Source: Pelosinus fermentans DSM 17108
Lineage (GTDB): Bacteria > Bacillota > Negativicutes > DSM-13327
Assembly (NCBI RefSeq): GCF_000271485.2
Contig: NZ_AKVN02000001.1
Coordinates: 3,621,501 to 3,685,500 of the forward strand
Direction: 5' to 3'
Length of the DNA stretch: 64,000 bases
Positions 52,441 through 62,788 of the stretch are shown one piece after another. The first letter of the stretch is position 1, and every line of letters begins with the position of its first letter. The notes below the pieces were generated by a model. It was not told the DNA's origin and did not search any database. It saw only the letters and a list, made by a program, of their open reading frames with translations. The translations under genes and the position numbers were made by a program.

Positions 52441-52487
52441 AAAAAAACCAGATTGTTACATGAACTGTAATTCATATAGCAACCTGG
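52441..52487 (-). terminator. riboswitch-controlled terminator upstream of the chemoreceptor gene
   Basis: On the minus strand CCAGGTTGCTATATGAA and TTCATGTAACAATCTGG form a stem with two mismatches, followed by eight T. Its left arm contains the 3' strand of the riboswitch P1 stem, so the two structures exclude each other. Confidence 0.7.
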
Positions 52488-52572
52488 CAGACATAGATAA
52501 AAATCGTTAGTCCCATAGCTTTGCGTCCTTAACTTTCGCTAAGTTTGCCGATCGTTCAATGGTATTGAATTT
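52469..52572 (-). ncRNA. cyclic di-GMP-I (GEMM) riboswitch
   Basis: The minus strand reads GATCGGCAAACTTAGCGAAA, then GTTAAGGACGCAAAGCTATG and GGACTAACG, followed by GCCAGGTTGC. This matches the GEMM-I core: GGCAAAC, GAAA tetraloop, GACGCAAAGC, GGG.CTAA and the closing AGGTTGC. P1 can form between AATTCAATA (5' end) and TATATGAATT (3' end). It lies about 100 nt upstream of the chemoreceptor ATG. Confidence 0.9.
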
Positions 52573-52752: not shown

Positions 52753-54268
52753 CTAAGACATCGTAGCCTTAACCCTCTCTTCTTGAGACATATCTGCTAA
52801 GTTTTTTACCTCAGTCAAATCCAATCCCAGGGTTTTGGCAATCCGTTTACCATAATCTTCATCGGCTTTGTAGAATAATGCAGTTTGTCGAAGCTGAATT
52901 CTTTTTTGAGCCTGCCCTAAATTACCGCATATATTAGAAATTAGGTTGCTTCTGTCAGTATCACTCATGACCCGACGGTATAATTCACCAGCCTGAACAA
53001 AATCTACATCTGACAAAACAAATGGATGTCTGTCCACTAAGCCTGTTACATCGATAGCAGGTACTGCATATTGAGCATCAGGTTCTGGACCATCAAAAGA
53101 ATTAGGATAATAGTTCGGTCCCGCACCACCATTGCCGTCAATATTCATGACACCGTCCCGCTGGTAGTTGTTGGTAAGACCAGCTTTAGATGCATTAATG
53201 GGGATCTGATGAAAATTGGCCCCCAGTCGATGTCGCTGTGTGTCAGGATAGCTGAACAACCTTCCCAACAGCATCTTATCTGGTGATACCCCAATACCGG
53301 GAACAAAGTTGCCAGGAGCGAATGCTACCTGCTCAACTTCTGCAAAGAAGTTTTCTGGGTTTCGATTTAGCACCATTTTTCCTACTGGAATCAACGGATA
53401 ATCTGCATGATACCAAACCTTTGTGATATCGAATGGATCGAATTTATAGTTCTTAGCATCGTCTGCCGTCATAATCTGAACATATACTGTCCATGAAGGA
53501 TATTCTCCTGCTTCGATGCTGTCATAGAGATCTTTAGTTGCCCGATCAGGGTCTGTACCTGCTAATTCAGTAGCTTCTGCATCTGTAAGAGTCTGGAAAC
53601 CAAGGTCTGCTTTAAAATGCCATTTGAACCAACAGTGTTCGCCGGCCTGATTGTAAAACATATAGGTATGGCTGCTGTGCCCGTCCATATGACGAAAGCT
53701 TTTAGGTGTGCCCCGGTCAGAAAACAAAATTGTCACCTGATGAATGGATTCCGGAGTAAGGGATAGAAAATCCCACATCATATCAGGATCTTTTGTATGT
53801 TTCGCTGGATGCCTTTTTTGAGTATGTATAAAATCAGGAAACTTGATAGCGTCCCTGATAAAAAAGACCGGAGTATTATTACCTACCATATCATAATTTC
53901 CCTCGTCGGTATAAAACTTCACAGCAAATCCACGTGGGTCACGCCGCAGAATCAGCAGATCCCTTTTCACCGCCAACGGTAGAAAAGCGCACGAAAAGAT
54001 CTGTTTTCTTACCAATTTGCGAAAGGAAGTCAGCCCTGGTAAATTGCGTAATATCATGAGTAACTTCAAAATAACCGTGAGCTCCGGTTCCTTTGGCATG
54101 GACTACTCTTTCTGGAATCCTTTCCCTATCGAAATGTGCCAGCTTTTCAATTAGATGAGTATCGGACAAAAGTGTGTAGTGTGAGCTGCCAGTGGTAATG
54201 GAGTTTTGATCATCAGCTACAGGAATACCAAAATTTGTTGTTAATTTTTTCTTATTACTATCAACCAT
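52753..54268 (-). pseudogene. katA: catalase, one-base frameshift
   Basis: Clade-3-type haem catalase, about 500 residues if repaired. The first part has the catalytic histidine in [20 protein letters not shown] and ends SADSA-stop; the second part restarts at [20 protein letters not shown] and carries NNTPVFFIRDAIKFPDF and the haem tyrosine in RLFSYPDTQRHRLG. One extra C at about 53944-53945 (plus strand) causes the break at the otherwise invariant ADSARDPRGFA. Either a recent inactivation or a sequencing error. ATG 54268 follows AGGAGG. An ATAAT/ATTAT dyad at 54442-54457 faintly resembles a PerR site. Confidence 0.85.
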
Positions 54269-54471
54269 TAGCTTCACTCCTCCTCATATAATGTTAAAGA
54301 ACGACTTATTTAGGGAAGAACCTTCTAACTTTTTCAGCATCAGCCTCCTTTCCTAGCCCAGTTACTTCAATACCTAATTATTGGCACTAAGATTATTTTT
54401 CTTAAAATACTTATTCTCCAAACATAACATTATTCCTTTATTTATAATCAATTATTTTTAGCTATTTCGCA

Positions 54472-54496
54472 GAGTCAAGGGACGGTTCCGAGACTC
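54472..54496. repeat. REP hairpin 1 (downstream of RAYT)
   Basis: GAGTCAAGGGACGGTTCCGA plus GACTC: the complement of the REP copies at 55345 and 56556, sharing GAACCGTCCC. The RAYT stop codon (54495-54497) overlaps its end by 2 bp. Confidence 0.75.
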
Positions 54497-55292
54497 ACTT
54501 TGTACGCTGAACCATATTTCTATCTACATCCAATAACTTAGCAATTTGACGAATTGATAGGTTTGATTTTCGTTTCAGTGTGTTAATAAGATCTCGCCGT
54601 AAATCTTCCTTCTGGCGATTTTTCAGATCACTACTATTGATATTATGTTTGACTAGAAAATGCATAATCAATTCTTTTGCTTGATTTTCAGTTTGAATCG
54701 CTTTCTCTTCTACATTCTCTTCTTGTAAATCTATGAACTTTCCATCATCCTGTATTTTTGAGTAGTCTATAAAAAGCTTCGTTGATTTCTCGATATCATC
54801 TGAAAACATTTCGAGTATAAAACGCTTATCGATACTATTGTTTTGATTTTTTGTCTCTGTAAAAATAAAATAGCTACTCCATTTGTATTCTTCTATCTTT
54901 TTAACTATCCCTGCTTTGACTGGATTGTTATGTATGTATCTTACTGCCGACAATAGATATGCATCATTTTCAATTCCTTCGCTCTTAAATCGATCTTGAA
55001 AGAGATGTCCCGTTCGAACGTATTTTTTATTGAAATAGTAGGCGTAGCTTATATTAATTCTTTTCATAATCCGTCCGATTTCATCGCTACCCTCATTGAT
55101 TAGGAGATGTACATGATTGTCCATTAAGCAATAAGCATATATAGCAAATTTTCGATCCTTATTTTTTTCACTTAGAATCTCTATAAAACGGTTTTTGTCT
55201 TCCTCATCAAGAAAGATATTCTTTCTTGCATTTCCCCGGATCATCACATGATAGATTTTACTTTCACTTAATTGCCTACTTTGTCGTGGCAT
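54495..55292 (-). CDS. REP-associated tyrosine transposase (RAYT)
   Basis: 265 residues of the Y1/TnpA_REP family. The N-terminal YHVMIRGNARKNIFLDEED, the HUH motif in CLMDNHVHLLINEG and the catalytic tyrosine in LLSAVRYIHNNPVKAGIV are intact. RAYTs nick single-stranded REP hairpins and spread them without IS mobility. The C-terminus adds a helix-turn-helix-like part (LSIRQIAKLLDVDRNMVQR), seen in some RAYT groups. REP hairpins of matching sequence flank the gene in opposite orientation, and a third lies 1.2 kb away. Confidence 0.88.
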   Translation of the reverse strand: MPRQSRQLSESKIYHVMIRGNARKNIFLDEEDKNRFIEILSEKNKDRKFAIYAYCLMDNHVHLLINEGSDEIGRIMKRINISYAYYFNKKYVRTGHLFQDRFKSEGIENDAYLLSAVRYIHNNPVKAGIVKKIEEYKWSSYFIFTETKNQNNSIDKRFILEMFSDDIEKSTKLFIDYSKIQDDGKFIDLQEENVEEKAIQTENQAKELIMHFLVKHNINSSDLKNRQKEDLRRDLINTLKRKSNLSIRQIAKLLDVDRNMVQRTK

Positions 55293-55344
55293 GCAAATCT
55301 CTCCCTCTTTGGTTTTAGGGACATTGTATCACTTATATTTTAAA

Positions 55345-55370
55345 GAGTCAAAGAACCGTCCCTCCGACTC
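55345..55370. repeat. REP hairpin 2 (upstream of RAYT)
   Basis: GAGTCAAAGAACCGTCCCTC plus CGACTC; the terminal GAGTC/GACTC close a short hairpin. It lies 52 bp upstream of the RAYT start, inverted relative to REP 1. Confidence 0.75.
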
Positions 55371-55441
55371 TTAGCTTAAGAACAAGGATATTGGCGTTAA
55401 ACATCTAATTAACTTACTATCATAATACGAGGAGGCATACT

Positions 55442-56166
55442 ATGTTGATTTATGCTCACCGTGGTGCCCGGAGTTATGCCCCTGAAAACACTATGTCGGC
55501 CTTTCGCCAGGCTATCATCTGTAAAGCAGACGGCATTGAACTGGATGTGCAGGCAACGAAAGACCATCAATTGGTCATTTGTCACGACCATACTATTGAT
55601 CGTACCAGCAATGGTTCCGGCTGGATTAAAGACTTAACGCTAGCGCAGCTCAAGTCATTCGACTTTGGCTCTTGGTTTGCTCCTTCCTTTGCCAACGAAG
55701 CCATCCTTACTTTTCAAGAATTTTTCGCTTGGTATGTTACTACCCCTCTGCTGTTAAATATTGAAATCAAAAATGGTCCCGTTATTTACAAAGGTATAGA
55801 AGAACAACTTATCAACATTATGAAAGCCAATAAGAATACTCCTCAGGATTTTGATCTTTACAATCGCATTATCATCTCTTCTTTTTATCATCCATCTTTA
55901 GTAAAAATAAACAAGTAGATCAACAATTTAAAACTGGAGTCTTATTTGCTGACCGTCCCGTTGATGTTCTCAGCCTAATTCAACAAACAAACGCCGATTA
56001 TCTGCATCCACATTGGCACTACCTCGAAGAGAATTGGATCGAAGCAGCCCATGAAGCAGGTATCGGCGTTAACAGTTATACAATTAATACCCAAGAAGAA
56101 TTTGATTTTAGCTGTGCCAACCATATTGATGGACTTTTTAGTGACTTTCCCGATCGCTGGTCATAA
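55442..56166 (+). pseudogene. ugpQ: glycerophosphodiester phosphodiesterase, one-base frameshift
   Basis: The first 158 codons have the GDPD signatures IYAHRGARSYAPENTMSAFR, GIELDVQATKDHQLVICHDH and LLNIEIKNG, then stop after LVKINK. The next frame continues VDQQFKTGVLFADRPVDVLS, then HPHWHYLEENWIEAAHEAGI and DGLFSDFPDRWS-stop. Restoring one A in the A5 run at 55903-55907 rejoins the frame, giving about 241 residues. Slippage, recent decay or a sequencing error are all possible. GAGGAGG precedes the ATG. The enzyme would release glycerol-3-phosphate from phospholipid head groups. Confidence 0.85.
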
Positions 56167-56530
56167 ACCCCGCTCTAAGGTAAGCAGGCACTGACCTGTT
56201 TCTTTAGCAAAAATGTGAAGAATGCCTCTTGCCGGTGTCACAAATACTGTTTGACCAAGTTGCGGCAGTATTTTAGGCACCGGAATTTTTATAGCTGCTT
56301 TATCCTGCCCTACCAGCAAGTGGACAATTGCCTCAGAACCAATATTTTCGATTAATGCTACGATACCTGCGATCGCACTTTCATTCTTCTCGGCAAGCAG
56401 CGATAAATTTTCTGGACGCAAACCAAGATATACTTCTTCTTCAGTTAGACATTGACCTACTAACTTAAATTTCAAAATCATGACCTTTAAAAATCTGTCT
56501 CCTCTCTTTTGTAATGATAACGCCGCTTAA
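56161..56530 (-). pseudogene. ugpC: C-terminal remnant of a UgpC-type ABC ATPase
   Basis: The frame EEEVYLGLRPENLSLLAEKN, later AIKIPVPKILPQLGQTVFVT and HIFAKETGQ, is the TOBE/OB-fold regulatory end of sugar/glycerol-phosphate importer ATPases. The whole ATPase domain is missing. The frame can be followed upstream to a stop at about 56530, just before a REP hairpin. It overlaps the ugpQ stop by 6 bp on the opposite strand. The deletion suggests loss of a ugp transport operon. Confidence 0.7.
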
Positions 56531-56663: not shown

Positions 56664-58220
56664 TTACTGCGCTTTCACATCTACTTCAAACATGCGATTC
56701 CAAGGGAAGGATACTTCTATTTTTTCCAACGGGAACTCACTTAAATTTTGCTGAGCAAAATTCTGCATGCGTTTGGCAGCATCTTGGGTAAGGGTGGGGC
56801 GCATTTCATTTAATTGTACATTGTTGATTCCTTGAGGGATTAATACTTCATTCATCAGATCGCTGCGCACATTGGCTTGATACGCCCAGTCATCTAAAAG
56901 ACGAACGGCAATGAGATTATTTTTGTCGCCAGCTGCCATTCGCTGAGCAAAAGCAGCTTGTCCAATGGTATAACCAATAGTGTTGCTGGCTGTATTCCAG
57001 CCAGAATAAGATTCTAGCTGAGACGCCAATTTACTATCAGTCATTTCCTTCATAAAGGCATTATCAGAACCATTGGCAAAAGAGATATCTGCCACCGCTA
57101 CTTTTCGGCCAGCTTCTAAATAGCTTTCAATCTGTTTTACAAACGCAAGGGTTCCCTTGCTGGCTTTTGTTTTATTTGATTCCATGCCTGCTTCTCTGGT
57201 CCAGCCATCTACTGGTGTATTGACTGCCAAAATCATATCAGCTACTTTATCCGATAACAAAGGTACAAAACCAGCAGCAAACAAATGATCTCTTACATTT
57301 TTGCCAACAGGAGTATCTTCATAAGAAGGAATGGTCTTATTACCAACACCTTGGGTATAGATCACAGAGACGGAAGGTATGGTAAAGGTCAGATCATTGA
57401 CAGCTCTTGTCAACATGAGCATTCCTAACTGATCTGCACCGGGAAAAGAAGAGTATTTACTGGCAGATAAATCGGCTGTTTCTTTCCCTAGCCATCTGGA
57501 CTCCTGATGAGATCTTGACAGCGGGGAGCAATCATCACGACCGATCAGCAAGTAATTAAAGATATTTTGTTTTGCTGCAGAAACAAGCTGTAAATTTGCT
57601 TTAAAGTTCTTTTCCCGCCTGTTTACCCAATCTTCCATAATATCTTTCGGAACTTGCGCATTTAATGTCTCTAATTCTTTCTTTTCTTTTTTACTTAACT
57701 TCTCCATTTCACTTTTATCTTGGAGAGCGTGAATGCGGAAAATCGCTGGTCCATAGGTCTCGTAATATGCTGGTTCTACCCCGCCGCTGGAAGCATGGGG
57801 ACTGCGCATAATCGTACTAAATACATATAAGCGTACAGAAGGATTCAGTTCCTTTAGTTTTTGAAAATTTGCCACTCTTTCCAGCAGCACTTCCTCACTG
57901 ATTTCATGAGTTCTAGAAGCAACCAGTCCACCATAGATCAGTGCATCGGCCGATACTACGACTCCGTCTGCTTCTTTCGCATGAGCAAAAACCCATTCCC
58001 ATAGTTGGTCAGGATTTGCACTTCTCGTTCTGGCTGCAAGAGAGTCTTCCGGTGGAACTAGAATATCAAATCCACCCTTTTTTACGGTATCGACTACGTA
58101 TTCATAACTTACAGGGCGATTGTCAAAGGGGACATACATGAGGGTCTGAGCATATCCCGGTACATGGATAAAGAATAGCAGGAGAAAAATTGCTGTTACA
58201 ATACCTTTTTTATTATTCAT
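56664..58220 (-). CDS. secreted DUF4127 family protein
   Basis: 518 residues with an N-terminal signal segment (KKGIVTAIFLLLFFIHVPGY, cleavage near YAQ). The mature protein starts LMYVPFDNRPVSYEYV and includes DGVVVSADALIYGGLVASRT, LLIGRDDCSPLSRSHQESRW and VADISFANGSDN, the DUF4127 pattern. Function is unknown in the family; it is probably exported and may be anchored. ATG 58220 has AAAGGATG 9 nt upstream and overlaps the stop of the GT-C-like gene, so the two are coupled. Last gene of the operon. Confidence 0.8.
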   Translation of the reverse strand: MNNKKGIVTAIFLLLFFIHVPGYAQTLMYVPFDNRPVSYEYVVDTVKKGGFDILVPPEDSLAARTRSANPDQLWEWVFAHAKEADGVVVSADALIYGGLVASRTHEISEEVLLERVANFQKLKELNPSVRLYVFSTIMRSPHASSGGVEPAYYETYGPAIFRIHALQDKSEMEKLSKKEKKELETLNAQVPKDIMEDWVNRREKNFKANLQLVSAAKQNIFNYLLIGRDDCSPLSRSHQESRWLGKETADLSASKYSSFPGADQLGMLMLTRAVNDLTFTIPSVSVIYTQGVGNKTIPSYEDTPVGKNVRDHLFAAGFVPLLSDKVADMILAVNTPVDGWTREAGMESNKTKASKGTLAFVKQIESYLEAGRKVAVADISFANGSDNAFMKEMTDSKLASQLESYSGWNTASNTIGYTIGQAAFAQRMAAGDKNNLIAVRLLDDWAYQANVRSDLMNEVLIPQGINNVQLNEMRPTLTQDAAKRMQNFAQQNLSEFPLEKIEVSFPWNRMFEVDVKAQ

Positions 58221-59907
58221 GTTCATCCATCCTTTCTTTTGCAAAAATAGCTGCTAATGATTGTTCTTTCGCTGGAGCAGTTAAATAGTTGTACCTCATG
58301 ACCTCGATGTTCATATCAGCAATATCTGCTGGCGCATCCACAAAGGAAATATTGTTTTGAGCAAACCGCACATAGTTCGAAGTAAACTCGCCAAAACACA
58401 CATTGATCGGATTATGATATGCAGCAATCTCTTTTAATTCCTGTCTTAGCGCCTGGGTACAGTAATAATTGCCAAGAATATAGGGATAAGAAATTAAAGC
58501 CAGATTGATCACAGCCGCTCCTGCTAGAATCCCTCCGAGATAACGAATTGCTTTTTTCTGATTGGACCAAGCAATGAGTGCAAGGCAAATACAGGCGAAC
58601 CAGATTTGCGGCACATATCGTGCCCACCAAGATTCCGGATTGATGAGTGCTGATATCATAATACTCACGACCAAACCTACCCCATAAACTGTATCCTTCT
58701 TGGGAGACCAGAATAATAATAGCAAGATAAGACTACTAATCACCAGCATACCGCTAAACCAAGGACCAAATCCTCCAATTCGAATATCCGCGCCATAAAT
58801 GAAAGGTCTAAGCTCTTGTGGAGTAACACGAAAAGGAGGCTTTACCACGGGTTCTTCCATATCAAACTGATTCGTAGCCATAGAGAAATTAGCAACATAT
58901 AGTTTCTTTATTCCACTCATTTGTAAAAAACCCTTTGGGGAATTACTGGTCATAATATCCATCGACTTTGATCCTGCACCATATAAGGGATAAAAAGGAT
59001 GTCCATAAAATAGGCTATTGGTTATGTATGGATTATAGCCCAGAACACAAATCCCCACAATGAAAGCGATAATTGCTGTTTTCCCAAGGTCCCAACAGCT
59101 TTCTCGTCTTTTTAGCAGCCATAGCCACCCACCTAGTAACCCCATACAGGCAATGGCATATACGATACCGGTAAATTTTACATTTACCAGCAAAGCAATG
59201 CTCATGATAAAACCAGCCAAAACAAATATATCATACTTCCTGATCATTTGGTAAGACAGAGCCAGTAAGCATAATAATAAAGATGCCAATTGTCCATCGA
59301 TGTAAAAACTTAGGGATTGATAAATGCTTACCGGATTAAAAGCCAATAGCAAGCTAAAAAATATAGCTTGGTTGACACTATATCTCTGGCTATTTTGTAA
59401 CGCAGAAAACGTTAATAGAAAAGACGCTGCGATTAATAGAAAATTGAAGGCTTTGCTCTGTTCGATTTGCCCTGTTACCGTATATAAGACCGCTTCATAG
59501 ATCCATGGCCCTTTTGCATAGTGATTGAGTAACATGGCGGACTGGGACTGCTCTTTTGTCAAATACTGCTGAAAGGGATTCCAATGATTGACCAGCTGTA
59601 AGACGGCTTCTTGATGATACACCTGCCCATCATAGGATATATCATAAAACATACCACTTATCAGGATAAATAAGTACATTAGCAATACAGATAGACTCCC
59701 TATACTAAGGAACCATTTCCATTGGTTTTCTTTTTTATAAAACTTCCCAGCACTAAAAATAAAGAGAAAACTGCCAGCAGCTGACAGCCATAAGTGAATC
59801 GGTAATAAAGATACGCCCATTCCAAATCCAATAGCCGACAGCGCTAAAATAAAGAACATAAAGGACAATAAAGTTAGCCCTGCTATAAAAGGAAAGCTTC
59901 CTAACAT
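58213..59907 (-). CDS. polytopic GT-C-like glycosyltransferase
   Basis: 564 residues with about 12 membrane segments and a C-terminal soluble tail. The first external loop has ISYDGQVYHQEAVLQLVNHW, with an Asp placed like the catalytic acidic residue of GT-C enzymes that use lipid-phosphate sugars; NHYAKGPWIYEAVLYTVTG follows. ATG 59907 has GGGAGG 6 nt upstream. Its neighbours (prenyl-phosphate phosphoribosyltransferase, PAP2-like phosphatase, small multidrug-type protein) suggest it transfers a sugar from a polyprenyl carrier outside the membrane. The exact family is uncertain. Confidence 0.6.
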   Translation of the reverse strand: MLGSFPFIAGLTLLSFMFFILALSAIGFGMGVSLLPIHLWLSAAGSFLFIFSAGKFYKKENQWKWFLSIGSLSVLLMYLFILISGMFYDISYDGQVYHQEAVLQLVNHWNPFQQYLTKEQSQSAMLLNHYAKGPWIYEAVLYTVTGQIEQSKAFNFLLIAASFLLTFSALQNSQRYSVNQAIFFSLLLAFNPVSIYQSLSFYIDGQLASLLLCLLALSYQMIRKYDIFVLAGFIMSIALLVNVKFTGIVYAIACMGLLGGWLWLLKRRESCWDLGKTAIIAFIVGICVLGYNPYITNSLFYGHPFYPLYGAGSKSMDIMTSNSPKGFLQMSGIKKLYVANFSMATNQFDMEEPVVKPPFRVTPQELRPFIYGADIRIGGFGPWFSGMLVISSLILLLLFWSPKKDTVYGVGLVVSIMISALINPESWWARYVPQIWFACICLALIAWSNQKKAIRYLGGILAGAAVINLALISYPYILGNYYCTQALRQELKEIAAYHNPINVCFGEFTSNYVRFAQNNISFVDAPADIADMNIEVMRYNYLTAPAKEQSLAAIFAKERMDEHE

Positions 59908-59929
59908 ATATTTCCTCCCAACTGAATTG

Positions 59930-60340
59930 TCACACACGATGAAAAAGAAATGCCAATACAAATCCTACGACAAGGCCTCCCAATACTTCAATGAAAGTAT
60001 GCCCCTGCCGCTCCCTTAATGGTTTTGCATTTTGATGAGGTACGATATGTTGATTGATCATCACAGCCTGTTTTCCTAATGCCCGCCGGATCCCCATTGC
60101 ATCAAACATAGTAATCATAAGCACTGCTACCCCCAAACTAAATATTGGCTGATTAATTCCTTCTGATAAACCAATAAAAAAAACGGTACTGCTAATGACA
60201 GTCGTATGGGTACTTGGAAATCCCCCATTACCAATTAAAGTAACGGCCTCTTTGCGAAAATGAATATAATTTATGATAAATTTAACTGTACCTGCTGCAA
60301 ACCAAGCAATAACAGGTATTACGGCATATTTATAATCCAA
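59930..60340 (-). CDS. DUF212, divergent PAP2-type phosphatase-like membrane protein
   Basis: 136 residues with four hydrophobic segments. IGNGGFPSTHTTVISSTVFF, MITMFDAMGIRRALGKQAV and GHTFIEVLGGLVVGFVLAF correspond to the conserved motifs (GGxPSxHT, D-x-x-GxR, GHT..E...G) of the acid phosphatase/vanadium-haloperoxidase-related family. It may remove phosphate from a prenyl-linked sugar phosphate, as PAP2 protein Rv3807c is proposed to do in mycobacteria. The start is ATG 60340, 12 nt after the EamA-like gene. Confidence 0.8.
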   Translation of the reverse strand: MDYKYAVIPVIAWFAAGTVKFIINYIHFRKEAVTLIGNGGFPSTHTTVISSTVFFIGLSEGINQPIFSLGVAVLMITMFDAMGIRRALGKQAVMINQHIVPHQNAKPLRERQGHTFIEVLGGLVVGFVLAFLFHRV

Positions 60341-60352
60341 TGTAACATCCTC

Positions 60353-60697
60353 CTAGGATCTGGCTACTAAGGTAATACCTGCTATAATAAAGAGCATTCC
60401 ACCCATCCTTAGCCAGTTTATGGGTTCATGAAAAATAAAATAGGAGGCAATAAACACTAGAATATAGCCTAAACTTACCATAGGATAGGCATAGCTAAGT
60501 TCTACTTTTTTCAAAGCCATAATCCATAGTATTGTGCTAATACAATACAAAAATAGTCCCAGCACAATCGGCCATTTTATTTTTTCTATTATTGTAACAC
60601 CAGGATTTTGAACCATTTGCATGGCACCTAATTTAAAGGCAATTTGACCTACTGCACCAATGGTTACGGAGATGAGAATTAATAGTAAATCTTTCAT
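60353..60697 (-). CDS. EamA/SMR-family small transporter, flippase-like
   Basis: 114 residues with four membrane segments (LLLILISVTIGAVGQIAFKL; WPIVLGLFLYCISTILWIMA; SYAYPMVSLGYILVFIASYF; MGGMLFIIAGITLVA). This is the half-size EmrE/ArnE-ArnF layout, and SYAYP..SLGY is the motif of such proteins. ArnEF flips undecaprenyl-phosphate-aminoarabinose, so here it may flip a prenyl-phosphate sugar made by the neighbouring UbiA-type enzyme. That substrate is inferred. Confidence 0.75.
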   Translation of the reverse strand: MKDLLLILISVTIGAVGQIAFKLGAMQMVQNPGVTIIEKIKWPIVLGLFLYCISTILWIMALKKVELSYAYPMVSLGYILVFIASYFIFHEPINWLRMGGMLFIIAGITLVARS

Positions 60698-60734
60698 TTA
60701 TATATTACCTCACTACTAAATTTCATTGGGATTT

Positions 60735-61643
60735 TTACTCAAAGTAATATAAAATAGTCACAACCATAACAGCGAACAATAAAACAGTGCCTAAAATATG
60801 ACTATCTTCTACCAATACTTTTTCGGGTCTTCCCCCTTGTCCTTCTATATGAATTAAATACAAATAGCGAAAAATTCCATACATGACGAGAGGAATGGTC
60901 CACATTAGATGAATAGTATGGCCTGATGTAAAGGTAAATAAAGAATAGCTCATAATCGCCGCTGTAGTAACAATACTATTTAATTGATCCAATAATGCAG
61001 GAGAATATTGTTCTAATACCTTGCGGTGTTCACCTTTATGATGACTAAGCAAATATAGCTCATGTCTGCGCTTGCTGATGGCTAAAAATAAAGCCAATAG
61101 CATGGTGCAAATTAAAAACCAGGGAGTAAAAGAAACATTAATAGCTAATCCTCCCCCTATGGCCCGCAAAACAAACCCAAAAGCAATGACCATAATGTCA
61201 ATGATCACAATCTGTTTTAACTTCACAGAATATGCTACATTCACCACAAAATATCCGAAAAGTAACAGGCTAAGCCAAGGCTCTGCTATAAATGCAGCTA
61301 TAAGTGAACCGCATAATAAAACACTAGCAAATACTAATGCACCCAACGGATGTAATCTGCCAGAAGCAATGGGACGATTGCATTTCTCCGGATGTTTGCC
61401 ATCGGCTTCTCGGTCAATATAATCATTTATAATGTAAACACAGCCTGATGTCGTACAAAACAAAATGAAAGCAACAGCCGATTGTACCAACATATCCACA
61501 GATACGGTTTTAATGGAAAAAATCAACGCAGCAAACACTAACAAATTTTTTGTCCACTGTTTCGGACGCAATACCATTAGATAGGGCAAAACCTTGTCCC
61601 CAGCTTTATCTTTCTTTATTATTGTCTGCTCTAAAAGGTTCAT
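60735..61643 (-). CDS. UbiA-family phosphoribosyl-prenyl-phosphate synthase
   Basis: 302 residues with about eight membrane segments. The prenyltransferase motif N-x3-D-x3-D occurs as INDYIDREADGKHPEKCNRP, and the second Asp-rich region is AISKRRHELYLLSHHKGEH. Together with LRPKQWTKNLLVFAALIF at the start this is the decaprenyl-phosphate phosphoribosyltransferase subgroup (Rv3806c-like), which joins PRPP to a polyprenyl phosphate. The ATG overlaps the stop of the upstream Fe-dehydrogenase gene by 4 nt. Confidence 0.82.
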   Translation of the reverse strand: MNLLEQTIIKKDKAGDKVLPYLMVLRPKQWTKNLLVFAALIFSIKTVSVDMLVQSAVAFILFCTTSGCVYIINDYIDREADGKHPEKCNRPIASGRLHPLGALVFASVLLCGSLIAAFIAEPWLSLLLFGYFVVNVAYSVKLKQIVIIDIMVIAFGFVLRAIGGGLAINVSFTPWFLICTMLLALFLAISKRRHELYLLSHHKGEHRKVLEQYSPALLDQLNSIVTTAAIMSYSLFTFTSGHTIHLMWTIPLVMYGIFRYLYLIHIEGQGGRPEKVLVEDSHILGTVLLFAVMVVTILYYFE

Positions 61644-62788
61644 TTATAAAACGCTCCATCATATATCTTCTCTATAATACCCGGAATCTCCCCTGCCGGA
61701 TCATTGGACAAGTTACCTGTTACTTTACTTGCCAAATAACTCACATCCGCTTTTGTTAAAGAAAAATCCGTCAAACTAGGATTTATATTTATACTTTGCC
61801 TAAATTGGCGATAAACATTCATAAATTCCTTCTTATTAGAGCATCTGGTGCCATGTAATGCTTCTGCAATATGATTGAATTTCTCTTTGGAAATCTCATA
61901 GGTCAAATCCAGCCAGCTTTCAAAGAGAGCCATTAATCCGCTGCCATGACTGCTGTTGGTTTTTACACCGATCGGATACTGTAAACGGTGAGGCAGACAA
62001 GTGCTGGAGTTAGCTAGATTGAATCCCATCAGCATACTGGCATACATCATATAAGTACGTGCAGTACTATTTTGACCATCTGTTAAGGCCTGAGGCAAAT
62101 ATTGTCCTACCAATTGTATCGCTTGTAGCGAATTGCTGCCAACCAAAGGACTTAGCCCACTTTTTGATATATAGGTCTCTACCCCATGAGCAAATACATC
62201 AAAACCTGTCTCTACTGTAGTTTCAGGTGATAATGACATTGTCAATTGTGGGTCAACGATAGCAATGGCAGGAAAGAAGCCTTTATGACGGAAGCTAGTC
62301 TTCGTACCAGTGCTCTCGTCGGTTAAAATAGCCGCCCAATTGGTTTCAGATCCTGTACCTGCCGTAGTCGGAATCGCTACAAGAGGAATGTCAACATGAG
62401 TAATCGGTAACTGGCCTAATAAATAAGGCTCCACTTTTTCTCCTGTGGATAAACCAAGAAGAATACCTTTCCCAGCATCAATGGCGCTGCCGCCGCCCAG
62501 GGCTACTACAACCTCAGGCTGCCAGCCGGCAAATTTTTCAACACAAGCATTGACTTCGCTAGCCAGAGGGTTGGCACTAATTCCTTCATATACCATAGAT
62601 TCAATGCCCAAAGCAGCAAGACCATCTACTAGCCTCTTGGTGAAACCATATTTATTCATCGCATACTTCCCTGTAACAATCAGAACCTTTTTGCCAAGGG
62701 TTTTAATATAATCGGGAGCTTTTTCAAACTCACCACAGCCAAAGAATATTTTAGTTGGCATATAATAAGTAAAATGCACAGCATTCAA
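61640..62788 (-). CDS. iron-containing alcohol dehydrogenase
   Basis: 382 residues of the group III Fe-ADH family. GGGSAIDAGKGILLGLS binds NAD; metal ligands lie in TGFDVFAHGVETYIS, STCLPHRLQYPIG and NSSHGSGLMALFE. It reduces aldehydes or oxidises alcohols, with variable substrates. As first gene of the prenyl-phosphate operon and translationally coupled to the UbiA-type gene it may supply or modify the sugar or lipid, or be a passenger. Substrate unknown. Confidence 0.85.
   Translation of the reverse strand: MNAVHFTYYMPTKIFFGCGEFEKAPDYIKTLGKKVLIVTGKYAMNKYGFTKRLVDGLAALGIESMVYEGISANPLASEVNACVEKFAGWQPEVVVALGGGSAIDAGKGILLGLSTGEKVEPYLLGQLPITHVDIPLVAIPTTAGTGSETNWAAILTDESTGTKTSFRHKGFFPAIAIVDPQLTMSLSPETTVETGFDVFAHGVETYISKSGLSPLVGSNSLQAIQLVGQYLPQALTDGQNSTARTYMMYASMLMGFNLANSSTCLPHRLQYPIGVKTNSSHGSGLMALFESWLDLTYEISKEKFNHIAEALHGTRCSNKKEFMNVYRQFRQSININPSLTDFSLTKADVSYLASKVTGNLSNDPAGEIPGIIEKIYDGAFYK

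Follow-up and report, generated by a model that had tools for sequence, protein, structure and literature searches.

We predict that a six-gene operon of Pelosinus fermentans, located in a 64,000-nucleotide stretch of genomic DNA that was analysed as a whole (the window), encodes an extracytoplasmic pentofuranosylation system, and we regard this assignment as quite likely. In the pathway that we envisage, a UbiA-type enzyme would combine PRPP with polyprenyl phosphate to give polyprenyl-phosphate-ribose-5-phosphate, from which a DUF212 protein would take off the 5'-phosphate to leave polyprenyl-phosphate-ribofuranose. This lipid, whose carrier is probably undecaprenyl, would be flipped across the cytoplasmic membrane by an ArnE/ArnF-like SMR protein, and a GT-C protein with a predicted ArnT-like fold would then pass the ribofuranose to a cell-surface or secreted acceptor. 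The co-transcribed iron-containing alcohol dehydrogenase (Fe-ADH) and DUF4127 protein would lie outside this core, and no gene for an acceptor glycan was identified in the operon. A preliminary sequence-only reading of the locus had already proposed that a lipid-linked pentose is built, flipped and transferred, a scheme to which the identity of the UbiA enzyme and the fit of its neighbors lend inferential support.

All six ORFs lie on the minus strand between positions 56664 and 62788 (Table 1), where they had previously been placed, and the earlier family calls proved right (Pfam-level matches of 8e-26 for UbiA and 8e-10 for EamA/SMR, with the remainder given in the table). Fe-ADH overlaps UbiA by 4 nt, the gaps separating UbiA from SMR, SMR from DUF212 and DUF212 from GT-C are 37, 12 and 22 nt respectively, and the start of DUF4127 lies over the stop of GT-C in an 8-nt overlap. 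Two starts were corrected: that of GT-C to the ATG at 59907, which is preceded by a GGAGG site and yields a product of 564 aa, and that of DUF4127 to the ATG at 58220. As strong intrinsic terminators, both much more stable than shuffled sequences, flank the set at either end, the six genes are most simply interpreted as a single operon. The closest named loci, with UbiA proteins 95-100% identical to that of the window, belong to Pelosinus sp. and P. fermentans. Elsewhere in the window, two overlapping ORFs, each in its own frame, share an HPII-like catalase gene between them (52753-54277, minus strand), which suggests a frameshift or a sequence error. At 54495-56481, a REP-associated tyrosine transposase adjoins short ORFs resembling gene remnants, namely fragments of a glycerophosphodiester phosphodiesterase (158 aa) and a TOBE-domain protein (106 aa). 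The sole Rfam match within the 64 kb is a c-di-GMP-I riboswitch (52475-52559, minus strand, 73 bits).

Table 1. Genes of the predicted pentofuranosylation operon and the terminators that bound it (positions in the window)
Feature	Position	Strand	Evidence
Fe-ADH, iron-containing alcohol dehydrogenase; opens the operon, accessory specific to one lineage	61640..62788	-	Pfam Fe-ADH 6.6e-47
UbiA-fold polyprenyl-phosphate phosphoribosyltransferase (PPPRS/DPPRS type), predicted	60735..61643	-	NF008977 275.9 bits; PDB 8j8j E 1.1e-38; 10/12 PRPP-contact residues
ArnE/ArnF-like SMR/EamA protein, proposed polyprenyl-P-ribose flippase	60353..60697	-	ArnF 3.4e-15, ArnE 6.6e-11, both under cut-offs; adjoins UbiA in Pelosinus and Paenibacillus
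DUF212 divergent PAP2 protein, proposed polyprenyl-P-ribose-5-P 5'-phosphatase	59930..60340	-	PF02681 1.7e-31
GT-C_A membrane glycosyltransferase, ArnT-like fold, proposed pentofuranosyltransferase	58213..59907	-	Predicted fold
DUF4127 protein, N-terminal signal-like segment; last gene of the operon	56664..58220	-	PF13552 2e-158
Intrinsic terminator belonging to the lipoprotein gene upstream; delimits the operon on its 5' side	63052-63017	-	-21.1 kcal/mol, z -8.3, then T run
Intrinsic terminator downstream of DUF4127; delimits the operon on its 3' side	56641-56610	-	-23.8 kcal/mol, z -6.4, then T run

The UbiA protein of the window is very probably a polyprenyl-phosphate phosphoribosyltransferase of the DPPR-synthase kind, as the sequence-only reading had surmised. 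It scores above the NCBIfam equivalog threshold of NF008977 ("decaprenyl-phosphate phosphoribosyltransferase", cut-off 234 bits) and reaches that of NF008978 (226 bits, cut-off 207); the threshold of NF008976 is not reached (175.9 bits, cut-off 474). A search of the PDB recovered Rv3806c (8j8j/8j8k) as the top match and the sole solved homolog. When the 12 residues of Rv3806c that contact PRPP or Mg (taken from PMC10994848) were compared with the window protein, ten were found to be identical, namely R22, K28, Y70, N73, D77, K87, R90, Y138, K143 and K208. The remaining two are substituted as in nearly all relatives, Q135 by N (N in 93 of 107 relatives) and Y157 by F, the latter being a replacement also seen in some mycobacteria (PMC10994848).

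The SMR/EamA protein, whose best models are ArnF and ArnE, with neither cut-off reached, is proposed on the basis of this similarity to be the flippase. The GT-C protein matched no Pfam or NCBIfam model, and its profile retrieved nothing from the PDB sequences. Its AlphaFold model, of moderate confidence (pLDDT 73, pTM 0.82), retrieved ArnT as the best structural match with Z-scores of 17.0 (5f15, 357 aligned residues, rmsd 5.5) and 16.8, followed by PglB, OST, AftD (Z 13.9) and AftA (Z 13.3). All these latter matches fall at Z 13-14, a range that helical models can reach through common arrangement, but ArnT stands above it and nearly all listed matches are GT-C enzymes. The model thus places the earlier "GT-C-like polytopic protein" in the GT-C_A fold, as a predicted new sequence family. 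The modeled fold is shared with ArnT, yet fold alone is no proof of sugar specificity. Four residues, D107, D111, H116 and E118 (numbering of the 582-aa ORF), are invariant in the first outer loop, with the two aspartates lying in a conserved FYDxSYDGQxYHQE motif directly behind the helix that aligns with TM1 of ArnT. In ArnT the active-site aspartate D55 sits in the loop after TM1 (PMC7801869).

To trace the distribution of this system we surveyed 300 Negativicutes genomes from 97 genera. The UbiA enzyme was detected in 24 of these genomes (11 genera) and the GT-C protein in 14, every one of which is among the 24; at the level of genera, all six with the GT-C fall inside the 11 of 97 with UbiA (p 5e-7). 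This link is not a matter of adjacency alone, because two genomes hold the GT-C and UbiA genes on different contigs. The order UbiA-SMR-DUF212-GT-C is found in all readable Pelosinus loci, in two Sporomusaceae, in a member of another Negativicutes family (G016) and in 14 Paenibacillus species, in which the four-gene module stands without Fe-ADH or DUF4127 alongside. Such conservation in relatives, on which the sequence-only reading had hinged, rules out chance as the source of the gene order. The diderm setting that the same reading had assumed is not borne out, given that these 14 Paenibacillus species carry the four genes in an identical order. Paenibacillus has no outer membrane, and since it lacks lipid A, the family as a whole is unlikely to have a target restricted to lipid A.

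Other loci retain the logic of the module with different parts. About 25 other Paenibacillus have the arrangement UbiA-HAD phosphatase-SMR-SMR-DUF6080; one genome (G012) has UbiA-HAD-GT-C, with a GT-C of the same family as that of the window; and four loci combine SMR-UbiA-DUF212 with a different polytopic protein nearby, which is of the PMT_2 type in two of them (L039 and L087). In two Bacillaceae loci (L073 and L068) the arrangement is UbiA-DprE1-DprE2-like-LPG_synthase_TM, the DprE1 model NF053785 being matched at 509 bits in L073. This slot-by-slot exchange, of DUF212 for HAD in the phosphatase position and of a single SMR for an SMR pair in the flippase position, along with an optional epimerase and the GT-C, provides our strongest argument for the predicted roles. 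In a quick phylogenetic tree of the UbiA enzymes, with SH-aLRT support only and in which long branches make the placement of Rv3806c and the quinone paralogs unreliable, the Pelosinus-type enzymes (support 99) form the sister group of those Paenibacillus enzymes whose loci have an identical gene order (98), the sister relationship itself having a support of 82. Both are nested within a larger clade dominated by Bacilli. Because the tree pairs these two groups while the other Negativicutes enzymes branch deeper, it suggests that the module was transferred between Bacilli and the Sporomusaceae line.

Some of the neighborhoods contain further genes. Divergent to the UbiA operon in the Paenibacillus loci L038-L057 is a conserved block coding for a response regulator, a chitin-synthase-like GT2, a HEAT-repeat protein and a large membrane protein that matches GH72 weakly; the products of this block may synthesize the polymer receiving the modification. 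The exopolysaccharide-synthase-like GT2 flanking the Paenibacillus module was considered as a pointer to a common acceptor and rejected, as its matches in Pelosinus are weak (28%). In another Negativicutes family, two genomes have the UbiA enzyme beside genes for an ABC1 kinase-like protein, DUF362, LPG_synthase_TM and a PHP-domain protein.

The phosphatase position calls for closer scrutiny. An alignment of 15 DUF212 sequences revealed an invariant K20, a near-invariant PSTH (H45) and an LRExxGHxxxE motif (R109, H114, E118). The PAP2 superfamily is characterized by the motifs K, PSGH and SR...H...D, and the DUF212 motifs line up with all three in divergent form. The DUF212 protein scores under the cut-off of the Pfam PAP2 model itself, its profile gave no match among PDB sequences, and no tested function for the family was found in the searchable literature. 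Since loci such as those of the approximately 25 Paenibacillus and G012 swap one for the other, DUF212 and the HAD phosphatase fill the same slot. Like the SMR and GT-C proteins, DUF212 fits the part first suggested for it as a neighbor of UbiA. Alternatively, the DUF212 protein might recycle the polyprenyl phosphate carrier or be structural, leaving removal of the 5'-phosphate to a housekeeping phosphatase. The family is indeed common outside UbiA loci, with a second copy elsewhere in this genome and members in 6 of 14 control genomes, and PAP2 proteins often work at the outer face of the membrane. We nevertheless consider this alternative unlikely in view of the adjacency of DUF212 to UbiA in both Negativicutes and Paenibacillus, the HAD phosphatase that takes the slot elsewhere, and the unrelated phosphatases that occupy it in other bacteria (Kelly et al. 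2024, PMC11127046). A 268-aa ORF in one locus (L044) that resembled an SMR-DUF212 fusion was rejected as an out-of-frame extension.

The sugar transferred is most likely ribose rather than arabinose, because no DprE1 orthologue was found in the genome, in keeping with what had been noted at the outset: a Bacillaceae DprE1 query matched three proteins at 27% identity over the FAD-binding part only. Where no epimerase is present, undP-ribofuranose is used directly (Kelly et al. 2024, PMC11127046). The same pathway could conceivably end in an arabinose or xylose pentofuranose if an epimerase, unlinked or of unrelated type, acted on polyprenyl-P-ribose, perhaps with a contribution from the Fe-ADH. 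Consistent with this are the epimerase-bearing Bacillaceae relatives, the overlap of Fe-ADH with UbiA and the Xylf and Araf versions found by Kelly et al. (PMC11127046); however, the low identity and partial coverage of the best DprE1 matches, and the lack of Fe-ADH in G016 and in all 14 Paenibacillus four-gene loci, make such a product rather improbable. Ribose remains the favored sugar. A literature search on Pelosinus glycosylation and Paenibacillus ribofuranose returned nothing relevant by title and abstract.

The distribution of DUF4127 differs strikingly from that of the UbiA enzyme: it is present in 286 of the 300 Negativicutes genomes (93 of 97 genera) as against 24, which does not favor its being a dedicated partner of the pathway. 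Among the 14 control genomes it occurs only in Thermus and Deinobacterium, both diderm. With 45-52% identity to its counterparts in many other Negativicutes families, most of whose genomes are devoid of the UbiA enzyme, and only 23% to the other DUF4127 of the same genome, the window copy looks like a class-wide gene upstream of which the module was placed. In G016, DUF4127 also ends the operon and overlaps the GT-C gene. Of 18 sampled UbiA-bearing genomes outside Negativicutes, 14 lack DUF4127 and none of the other four has it beside UbiA. A sequence profile of the family gave no credible PDB match, an AlphaFold model from a six-sequence alignment was unusable (pLDDT 50), and a literature search found nothing. 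The Fe-ADH, which reached no NCBIfam equivalog cut-off, is found at the UbiA locus in no genomes other than those of Pelosinus and two close relatives among the Sporomusaceae, being absent from it in G016 and the 14 Paenibacillus, contrary to its supposed membership in the pathway. Hence, neither protein can be a required core component, though both are tightly coupled to the module here and may be accessory. One could speculate that a transferable UbiA-SMR-DUF212-GT-C cassette ribosylates an envelope or secreted polymer that monoderm Paenibacillus and diderm Pelosinus have in common, and that in Negativicutes it was docked onto a DUF4127 acting on the same polymer; we view this as a long shot, but if true it would provide the first function for both DUF212 and DUF4127. 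Also improbable is the original proposal that DUF4127 and Fe-ADH are integral pathway enzymes: DUF4127 is indeed the last gene of one terminator-bounded unit and is start-stop coupled in Pelosinus to the GT-C gene, which it overlaps in G016, but its near-ubiquity in Negativicutes, its 45-52% identical counterparts in families mostly devoid of UbiA and its absence from most of the sampled UbiA-bearing genomes outside Negativicutes all speak against this.

The sequence-only reading had also recognized that the UbiA protein must be distinguished from quinone and haem enzymes, and models for haem O synthase, UbiA/MenA-type enzymes and MqnP scored it at 20-50 bits, far under their cut-offs. Two other UbiA proteins of the genome lack most of the PRPP-contact residues and carry quinone-type motifs. 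That the window protein, despite belonging to the UbiA superfamily, should be a conventional prenyltransferase of menaquinone, haem or other quinone synthesis, with unrelated neighbors, is hence extremely improbable, as its NCBIfam scores, the Rv3806c match and the PRPP residues point elsewhere and the quinone-type motifs lie in these two paralogs.

The route is not undescribed, as had been thought: systems comprising a polyprenyl-phosphoribose synthase, a flippase and a GT-C were described as a class, with gram-positive examples noted, by Kelly et al. 2024 (PMC11127046), and the operon has the corresponding linked three-component pentofuranose set, its SMR being assigned by similarity. The biochemical precedent is Citrobacter ORF15/ORF14/ORF12 (PMC11127046). 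Citrobacter youngae O1/O2 would share with Pelosinus the PRPP-derived polyprenyl-P-ribofuranose donor, a flippase and a GT-C_A, with ribose used without an epimerase in O1; however, its HAD phosphatase is fused to the UbiA enzyme, its flippase is a MATE protein and its GT-C belongs to GT136, whereas in Pelosinus DUF212 is encoded separately, the SMR is ArnE/F-like and the GT-C matches no Pfam or NCBIfam model. The mycobacterial DPA pathway (Rv3806c, Rv3807c, DprE1/DprE2, Rv3789, Emb/Aft) resembles it in the homologous donor enzyme with the same PRPP site, the separate, here putative, membrane PAP2-type phosphatase and the GT-C end enzyme, but in Pelosinus no DprE1 orthologue was found, the operon has no Emb/Aft sequence homolog, the flippase is an SMR/EamA protein of the ArnE/F kind and the lipid is probably undecaprenyl. 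Aminoarabinose addition to lipid A by ArnE/ArnF-ArnT likewise moves a lipid-linked pentose, with a similar SMR and an ArnT to which the GT-C model is closest; there, however, the donor is made by ArnC rather than a UbiA-type enzyme, and the Pelosinus module also occurs in lipid-A-free Paenibacillus. What is new is thus the part list and its recurrence, in the same order, in the 14 Paenibacillus species; the type of pathway was known.

These findings would bring diderm Firmicutes into the range of lipid-linked pentofuranose donors, with a minimal part list of separate genes, and define a family of GT-C proteins whose occurrence follows that of the donor enzyme. They point to donor, phosphatase, flippase and transferase modules being swapped between lineages, and offer a testable function, that of a lipid-phosphoribose 5'-phosphatase, for the widespread DUF212 family. 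DUF4127, which is uncharacterised yet conserved and nearly universal in Negativicutes, has a signal-like N-terminus and merits study in its own right. Finally, they predict that the glycans of Pelosinus and Paenibacillus would contain ribofuranose that has hitherto gone unreported.
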